Shown here: positions 32,790-33,270 of the stretch, one piece after another | How the letters are laid out: each line of letters opens with the position of its first letter | Numbering within the stretch: the stretch's first letter is position 1 | Assembly: GCF_002754195.1 (NCBI RefSeq) | Contig: NZ_PEEU01000001.1 | Location: 4,154,001 to 4,218,000, forward strand | Length of the DNA: 64,000 nucleotides | Source of the DNA: Flavobacterium sp. 9 | GTDB lineage: Bacteria > Bacteroidota > Bacteroidia > Flavobacteriales > Flavobacteriaceae | Direction: 5' to 3' | Translations under genes and position numbers: made by a program | Notes under the pieces: generated by a model | What the model saw: the letters and a program-made list of their open reading frames with translations, nothing else | The model's database searches: none | Told to the model about the DNA's origin: nothing

Positions 32790-32798
32790 TTTCGATGT

Positions 32799-32824
32799 GC
32801 TTTAGGCAGTAGGCTTTAAGCTTT
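32799..32824. repeat. Direct repeat, left flank of the S23-type gene
   Basis: This 26-bp word matches 33203-33228 at 24 of 26 positions in the same orientation. The two copies bracket the four-helix-bundle gene between groES and groEL. It overlaps a GCAGTAG/CTACTGC inverted repeat. Confidence 0.8.
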
Positions 32825-32831
32825 ATGCTTT

Positions 32832-33188
32832 CTACTGCTGAATTAATTTTTGTTTTAATTTGTAAATTTTGCTTTTTATACTGTTAATTTTCTGTATCTG
32901 ATTTTCTGCAATTTCATTATTCAGATATTGCAAATCTTTAGCTAAAATTAAAAGATATTCTGTTTCATTGGCAGAACCCAAAGCTATGTTGAGAAATTGA
33001 TTAAATTCTTTGTCGCTATTTCTTCCACATCCTTCACTAATATTAGTGGGAATTGATGCAGATGCTCTTCTAATCTGACTTGTCAATCCATATAATTCTT
33101 CTTTAGGAAATAAAGAAGTCATTTTGTAGATTTCTAAAGTAAAAGAATGACTTAACGACCAAATATCATATTTTTTAAAATCTCTCAT
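32832..33188 (-). CDS. Four-helix-bundle protein (S23 / 23S rRNA intervening-sequence family)
   Basis: A 118-residue helical protein. It begins MRDFKKYDIWSLSHSFTLEI and has the family hallmarks FPKEELYGLTSQIRRASASI and PTNISEGCGRNSDKEFNQFL, then ALGSANETEYLLILAKDLQY. The family is found in rRNA intervening sequences of some bacteria and as free genes in many Bacteroidetes; its function is not established, though such proteins are often tied to mobile or retroelement-like contexts. Here it lies inside the groES-groEL interval, in the same direction, with direct repeats on both sides. Confidence 0.9.
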   Translation of the reverse strand: MRDFKKYDIWSLSHSFTLEIYKMTSLFPKEELYGLTSQIRRASASIPTNISEGCGRNSDKEFNQFLNIALGSANETEYLLILAKDLQYLNNEIAENQIQKINSIKSKIYKLKQKLIQQ

Positions 33189-33199
33189 TTGTTTTGCAT

Positions 33200-33248
33200 T
33201 AGGCTTTAGGCAATACGCTTTAAGCTTTTTGTTAGAGCCTAAAGCCTA
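33200..33248. repeat. Direct-repeat copy and 12-bp inverted repeat, right flank of the S23-type gene
   Basis: TAGGCTTTAGGC (33200-33211) and GCCTAAAGCCTA (33237-33248) are perfect inverted repeats with a 25-nt spacer. The 26-bp direct-repeat copy (33203-33228) overlaps the left arm. Confidence 0.8.
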
Positions 33249-33270
33249 CAGCTTATAGCTTAAGGCAATT

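Follow-up and report, generated by a model that had tools for sequence, protein, structure and literature searches.

Why does a gene of the S23 (23S rRNA-intervening-sequence protein) family stand between groES and groEL in Flavobacterium sp. 9, and what are the repeats on either side of it? In Leptospira, the intervening sequence (IVS) of 23S rRNA contains an S23 open reading frame. The S23 cassette family is widespread and little studied; we found S23 genes in 153 of 198 sampled Bacteroidota genomes. The available part of PMC4990558 describes the Coxiella IVS as a selfish element with terminal inverted repeats, reports processing of this 23S insertion by RNase III, and calls the functionality and origin of rRNA IVSs unclear.

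The locus lies in a window of 64,000 nucleotides, positions 4154001-4218000 (G000:C1) of a 6.33-Mb single-contig genome. A preliminary description of the window had proposed that a 118-codon four-helix-bundle gene was inserted here as a small mobile cassette bracketed by direct repeats.

Results

An S23 gene between inverted heptad arrays

The ORF was located between groES and groEL, both named by family models, and its product matched PF05635 (E=2.4e-39; 134.3 bits, cut-off 33.8) and TIGR02436 (E=1.2e-38; 131.6 bits, cut-off 24) over nearly its full length. No rRNA was found in the window at Rfam gathering scores, so the S23 locus is not inside a 23S rRNA gene. Elsewhere in the window, a Flavo-1 RNA was recognised at 15270-15357 on the minus strand (60.1 bits).

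Features of the groES-groEL spacer (window positions)
Feature	Positions	Strand	Assigned by
groEL, host gene on one side	31161-32789	-	family models
Whole cassette, occupying the groES-groEL spacer	32791-33270	-	
Downstream arm, degenerate heptad array (GCTTTAG GCAGTAG GCTTTAA GCTTTAT GC)	32799-32828	+	
S23 (23S rRNA-intervening-sequence protein) gene, 118 aa	32832-33188	-	PF05635, TIGR02436
Hairpin of the two opposed upstream arrays, containing the perfect 12-bp inverted repeat	33192-33270	-	
Inner upstream array, oriented as the downstream arm	33196-33225	+	
Outer upstream arm, inverted with respect to the downstream arm	33237-33266	-	
groES, host gene on the other side	33271-33546	-	family models

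The repeats are as first described: two 26-bp words (32799-32824 and 33203-33228) share one orientation and are identical at 24 of 26 positions, and a perfect 12-bp inverted repeat (33200-33211 with 33237-33248) has a 25-nt spacer. Both belong to a larger pattern, a 7-nt unit, GCNNTAN, repeated in three arrays. The pair of words is made up of the downstream arm and the inner half of the upstream hairpin, and the outermost two arrays are inverted relative to each other. The impression of a cassette-like unit with characteristic ends stands, but the ends are inverted degenerate arrays and do not resemble the direct repeats of a target duplication, a reading that we rejected in view of the inverted outer arms at groESL. 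The 26-bp word is not a chance word, since a genome-wide search (6.33 Mb) with the array pattern GCNNTANGCNNTANGCNNTANGC gave 44 overlapping matches, and one with the reversed pattern as a control gave none. Folding of the upstream hairpin gave -27.2 kcal/mol (z -3.2), and the whole groESL cassette had a z of -3.3.

A conserved four-helix-bundle protein under purifying selection

The profile matches identify the S23 product as a four-helix-bundle protein. Apart from the S23 model TIGR02436, only PF05635 exceeded its cut-off; the search revealed no known nuclease motif, and in particular no site-specific endonuclease of the kind encoded by homing elements. Membership of the DGR Avd family was considered and rejected, the likeness being a weak match to NF033474 (E=0.021; 15.2 bits, with the cut-off at 80). 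Solved relatives (2gsc and 2rld) have five chains each, and we take the S23 family as a whole to be pentameric. Fifteen residues were kept in at least 95% of 185 S23 proteins, a redundant set: W10, Y21, P28, E31, Q38, R41, S45, N49, I50, E52, G53, R56, F65, S72 and E75. So constant a set of polar residues suggests a role beyond that of a scaffold.

At the groESL site, the median dN/dS of S23 was 0.075 (355 of 1378 pairs, those with S23 dS<1, from 53 loci), compared to 0.024 for GroEL, and S23 dN correlated with GroEL dN (rho 0.79). By these measures the groESL S23 gene is under strong purifying selection and is mostly an old resident rather than a recent insertion.

Period-7 and period-8 flanks across S23 loci

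The genome contains 10 S23 genes. By eye, all of them seem to have periodic words on both sides, and the words vary among loci. One of them (L009, with an internal TGA) was left out of the computations by the ORF rule, and in another (L005) the arm alignment was weak (11). To these we added 69 loci from the genus (29 new and 40 chosen from among the matches listed), the 80 named loci nearest to the window S23 protein, 28 new loci from the phylum, one viral contig and eight plasmid loci, seven of them cyanobacterial.

Flanks with period 7 or 8 were found at 151 of the 192 loci with enough flank (121 with period 7, 30 with period 8); 37 had no period label and four had another period. Shuffled flanks gave 0 of 192, and random positions of the window genome 32 of 1943. 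Because 58 loci belong to a single site, we also counted by distinct site, where a majority label of 7 or 8 was obtained for 56 of 68. By group the counts were 8/9 for the window genome, 52/67 for the genus, 66/79 for named loci and 18/28 for the phylum. Median arm length was 4.9 units for period 7 and 4.6 units for period 8, with one quarter of period-7 arms longer than 7.7 units. The cassette design is thus an S23 gene between inverted arms, each of about four to five units of 7 nt (8 nt in some clades).

The two arms of a cassette match each other

Each left flank was aligned to reverse-complemented right flanks, either its own or those of other loci, with 5000 permutations. Using 100-nt flanks, matched arms scored higher than mismatched arms in the window genome (18.4 versus 9.5, n=9), the genus (14.7 versus 9.9, n=27) and the named loci (16.2 versus 13.4, n=79), in each case with 0 of 5000 permutations reaching the observed difference. 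The own partner was the single best arm at 7/9, 11/27 and 8/79 loci, respectively. With 150-nt flanks, the phylum loci gave 15.5 versus 9.5 (n=28), half of them (14/28) above the 95th percentile of mismatched pairs and half not; the window genome and genus together gave 19.5 versus 10.3 (n=76), with 55 above that percentile and 21 not. An excess in direct orientation was also present and smaller, as expected when a single flank has both senses.

Matching was also seen among loci of one orthologous site: 16.6 versus 13.0 at a site with n=20 (0/5000) and 18.2 versus 13.7 at one with n=9 (4/5000). At the groESL site (n=58) the excess was small (16.2 versus 15.4; 84/5000). Weaker groups gave 202 of 5000 (n=9), 200 (n=7) and 989, 421 and 243 (n=5 each), and one four-locus site showed no matched-arm excess (5000/5000). 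The better fit of own partners within orthologous sites indicates that, at some sites at least, arms drift yet stay complementary.

The arrangement at groESL, on the gene strand, is a forward array, S23 and a reverse array; an additional hairpin is often present at one end or at both. Exact arrays were present on both sides at 47 of 58 groESL loci; the upstream part starts with a forward array in 49/50 and the downstream part ends with a reverse array in 54/54.

Array similarity also followed the protein among close relatives. For S23 pairs at least 60% identical and without a common neighbour gene, mean array similarity was 18.4, and 20 of 37 pairs (from 25 loci) reached 18 or more; pairs below 50% identity scored 11-12. 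Over all pairs, array similarity showed a weak rank correlation with S23 identity (0.09; 10 of 1000 permutations did as well), and it was the 37 pairs of at least 60% identity that carried the signal. Mapping of the period label on the S23 tree is confounded by site, and we therefore relied on the coupling of sites to clades and on the 37-pair comparison.

S23 clades are tied to gene junctions

Grouping loci by shared neighbours on both sides gave 68 sites, the largest with 58, 20, 9, 9, 7, 5, 5, 5 and 4 loci; the seven-locus site is leuC|leuD (L139). On an S23 protein tree (FastTree, few alignment columns), these nine sites required 10 changes, against a minimum of 8 and a shuffled mean of 59.6. 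Such coupling would be expected under both vertical descent and homing. Related S23 genes also occur at unrelated gene junctions.

The comparison with related strains proposed in the preliminary description revealed many spacers without the gene. The groES-groEL spacer was without S23 in 27 of 30 genus loci read, the window genome being one of the 30; the refuting pattern named in the preliminary description, presence in every relative between differing flanks, was thus not seen. An S23 match lies no more than about 70 nt from groES in at least three (G022, G027 and G050) of 31 other genus genomes. Explaining the filled and empty states on the GroEL tree took 13 changes (4 of them forced by starred branches; 22.5 on average after shuffling), a count that is not a rate because 59 filled rows had been gathered as filled. 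In the four closest listed filled/empty comparisons (2-3.5% apart in GroEL), the whole spacer differs, and no insert in a common spacer is seen. One genus spacer (L022, G047) contains inverted GC-rich heptad arrays (GCTTTTG...) and lacks an S23 gene; by its arrays, this is a gene-less form at the groESL site.

Filled and empty alleles at mraY|murD

A query across mraY, S23 and murD (genes named by family models) was compared with 101 genomes, 99 of which match. Among the matches listed, the whole query was matched only in G000, G015 and G006; elsewhere its halves matched separately, mostly at adjacent places. In the 30 loci read, the three filled alleles have 466, 467 and 474 nt between the anchors and the other 27 have 0-3 nt. 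The cassette stands exactly between the mraY stop codon and the murD start codon, a striking case of a tolerated insertion. No target-site duplication was seen by eye at this junction. The three filled genomes fall at separate places of the mraY-murD tree (three changes, the maximum possible for three rows). Insertion at one cognate site, together with cassette-less alleles, is a trait of homing elements that this junction displays.

One near-identical filled/empty pair was found, the sisters G006 (filled) and G084 (empty), which are about 1% apart. The 30 nt next to the insert on either side contain seven differences, against an expectation of 0.28 (P 1.5e-8), and the stretches from 131 to 1200 nt out contain 10 on both sides together. 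In the nearest relative, G057, 5/7 junction positions agree with the empty allele. One step further out, G272 agrees with the empty allele at 3/7 and with the filled allele at 4/7; at two positions, most other loci (24 of 28) share the state of the filled allele. In our reading, G006 gained the cassette from a donor, with conversion of short flanks; given the mixed polarity of the junction positions, G084 could instead have lost it by recombining with an empty allele.

S23 cassettes in 23S rRNA and on plasmids

The suggested link to rRNA intervening sequences was borne out by an Azospirillum plasmid locus (L216) that had been taken by protein similarity alone (38.5% identity). It lies inside a 23S rRNA gene (Rfam LSU 783-3981), and its S23 match stands between inverted heptad arms with a score of 26 (10 with automatic ORF boundaries). 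Four of the cyanobacterial plasmid loci (L210, L211, L214 and L215) have clear arms; in L212, L213 and L217 they are weak or one-sided. The S23 gene of L211 is located between ribonucleotide-reductase genes. Those of L210 and L215 stand between cas genes (cas6 and cas4; cas10 and a Cmr3-family gene). Carriage by phages was looked for and rejected, with no match in 50,697 phage records; among viral contigs, 29 candidate stretches yielded one relative.

Cyanobacterial heptamers go by the name of STRR. Arrays of the heptamer TAACTGA have been described (MacGregor 2015, PMC4679880), and the available part of that paper makes no mention of S23, four helix or intervening.

Gene-less hairpins and a second cargo

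Inverted array pairs were scanned for in 464 kb of the window genome, consisting of the window and 20 stretches, eight of them chosen for their S23 genes. The scan found 27 pairs, nine of which enclose S23, and missed the S23 locus at 3266150. Among the 18 that do not enclose S23, one is the hairpin of the window S23 gene and one encloses another ORF; 14 of the remaining 16 have loops of 3-83 nt, and several are near-perfect hairpins. One such gene-less hairpin lies in the window at 27820-27903 (AAATTAGAAAATGTGTCAATTAG..., 14-nt loop, score 29). Inverted GTTTCAG arrays at 37642-38307 surround a 173-aa ORF (37702-38223, minus strand), which may be another cargo or a chance enclosure.

GC-heptad arrays occur at 13 genomic places, 12 of which have no S23 gene within 2 kb. 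To this extent the flank word is, as the preliminary description had allowed for, frequent far from S23 genes; but eight of the 12 places have both orientations within 120 nt and form hairpins, and we read them as gene-less relatives of the cassette rather than as unrelated words. We also considered, and rejected, solo hairpins as clean insertions. No empty site was seen at 5017236 (29 readable of 30 loci), where the relatives' spacers carry other sequence; they have different arrays, often outside a terminator-like hairpin. In one relative (L295, G291), 570 nt of other sequence stand where G000 has the array hairpin.

Octads AGNNNCTNAG had 0-436 overlapping matches per genome in 61 genomes of one genus (reversed control 0-41), one array giving several overlapping matches and both strands being counted. 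Their number was associated with carriage of period-8 S23 genes (P 3.8e-6, 15 versus 46 genomes, kinship ignored; carriers typed from labelled loci). Two genomes (G008 and G042) have abundant octads, and no period-8 S23 gene was found there. Across the genus, carriage of the groESL gene showed no visible link with AGC heptads: the gene is present in G014 and G050, which have 0 matches, and G018 has 52 matches. Very long AGC heptad runs occur at G018:C22:148958-154208.

Across 320 kb from five genomes that lack S23, no inverted pair was found and period-7/8 arrays numbered 4.1 per 100 kb; four S23-rich genomes gave 6 pairs in 400 kb and 19.8 such arrays per 100 kb. Control periods 11-14 differ too (15.6 versus 25.0 per 100 kb), two of the five S23-less genomes are much higher in GC, and G162, with 13 S23 genes, has 0 pairs.

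Similar arms were found around GxxExxY genes (TIGR04256; PF13366, of the PD-(D/E)XK (PDDEXK_3) nuclease superfamily), a family chosen for its gene neighbourhoods and not by a screen. Loci L247-L276 have inverted arrays with cores like CACAGAG or CGCAAAG about every 8-10 nt. In the 28 of these 30 loci with full flanks, arms matched (19.2 versus 10.1, 0/5000; 20/28 above the 95th percentile) and spacing was less regular, with 7/28 labelled 8, 9 or 10. GxxExxY genes were present in 48 of 75 Bacteroidota genomes with S23 and in 2 of 24 without it (99 genomes; P 1.1e-6, kinship ignored), five of the 24 being counted as S23-less because they were absent from the phylum survey's listing. A link between S23 and GxxExxY was not found in the open-licence PMC literature.

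Discussion

We consider it marginally likelier true than false that the S23 element is a small, site-specific, homing-like mobile cassette, with putative binding of the arms by its protein, presumed movement between genomes, and an old resident at groESL. S23, as a probable pentamer, would bind the arms as single strands or as hairpins. Each subunit might hold about one array unit, because the median arm has 4.6-4.9 units and each solved relative five chains. Bound in this way, S23 could protect or guide the DNA or RNA of the element. The copy of a cassette-bearing donor would have recombined into a cognate cassette-less junction, and cutting, if any, would be performed by a host or trans-acting nuclease, for which GxxExxY is a candidate. 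At groESL, the cassette would be kept by purifying selection.

The traits of such an element recall several known systems. Group I and II introns, inteins and free-standing homing endonucleases likewise have one clade per site and patchy carriers, and share the crowding of changes at the junction, seen here in one pair; unlike them, the S23 cassette has no known nuclease or ribozyme, and its junctions are intergenic. REP/REPIN elements with RAYT also combine a protein gene flanked by hairpin repeats with many gene-less hairpins per genome; in contrast, S23 has no transposase match, its arms are degenerate arrays and its clades are tied to sites. Bacillus TRAP, an unrelated protein, offers an analogy for a ring protein that reads regularly spaced short cores. 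Cyanobacterial heptamer arrays share the heptamer unit, and some adjoin S23 genes. In 23S rRNA IVSs, too, an S23 ORF stands between complementary ends, with the same periodic arms in Azospirillum; the cassettes described here differ in lying between protein genes (groES|groEL, mraY|murD, leuC|leuD). Periodic arms are not mentioned in the available part of the Coxiella account (PMC4990558).

Array hairpins might instead be spread by another agent, such as slippage, replication or a GxxExxY-like trans-acting nuclease, with S23 merely enclosed. The abundance of S23-less hairpins (18/27 pairs, 12/13 GC-heptad places) and the GxxExxY genes within similar arms fit such a process. We nevertheless find it unlikely, since most S23 genes are enclosed (56/68 sites by period label), related S23 genes at unrelated sites have similar arrays, and array pairs and arrays are scarcer in genomes without S23, although GC and control periods differ there too.

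A domesticated function in RNA processing is less probable still. The groESL arms would then form a processed stem that tunes groES and groEL, S23 would bind stems, and mobility would be incidental and old. Purifying selection on S23, the tracking of GroEL dN by S23 dN and the stability of the hairpin and cassette (z -3.2 and -3.3) are all in keeping with this, as is RNase III processing of the Coxiella 23S insertion in the available part of PMC4990558. It is harder to reconcile with the absence of the gene from 27 of 30 genus loci, even with at least three other genomes having S23 near groES, with the 13 filled/empty changes on the GroEL tree (filled rows preselected), or with other S23 clades at unrelated junctions.

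We think it quite improbable that S23 is an old vertical gene with many losses and no movement. Site-clade coupling and the rho of 0.79 with GroEL are what vertical inheritance with losses would give, and G272 has the filled allele's state at four of seven junction positions. At mraY|murD, however, losses must restore 0-3 nt in 27 of 30 loci and leave filled alleles in three separate places, a pattern that an empty allele spreading by recombination could produce. Classical transposon-like insertion with target-site duplication, for which the 24/26 word on both sides might speak, is hardly credible in view of the inverted outer arms, a repeated word that proves to be an array unit, the variation of arms among loci, PF05635 as the one family to exceed its cut-off, and the tie of clades to junctions.

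Returning to the homing-like cassette, its apparent placement in fixed gaps between genes suggests that the insertions known in bacterial rRNA belong to a wider class of mobile elements. A broader and more tentative proposal, which we regard as possible and well short of probable, is that this class is new: a small ring-forming protein would recognise the ends of its element by their register, each subunit taking one unit of 7 or 8 nt, and rRNA IVSs, some cyanobacterial heptamer arrays and GxxExxY cassettes would be its branches. The protein clade would set the core word and its spacing, drifting arms would be re-matched to each other, and the protein would install the cassette at one junction with the help of host recombination or of a nuclease acting in trans. 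Should the cassettes form a single class, with ends that can be recognised and cognate sites, it would become directly testable how rRNA IVSs and some heptamer repeats of Bacteroidota and cyanobacteria arose and spread, and what role the S23 fold has.
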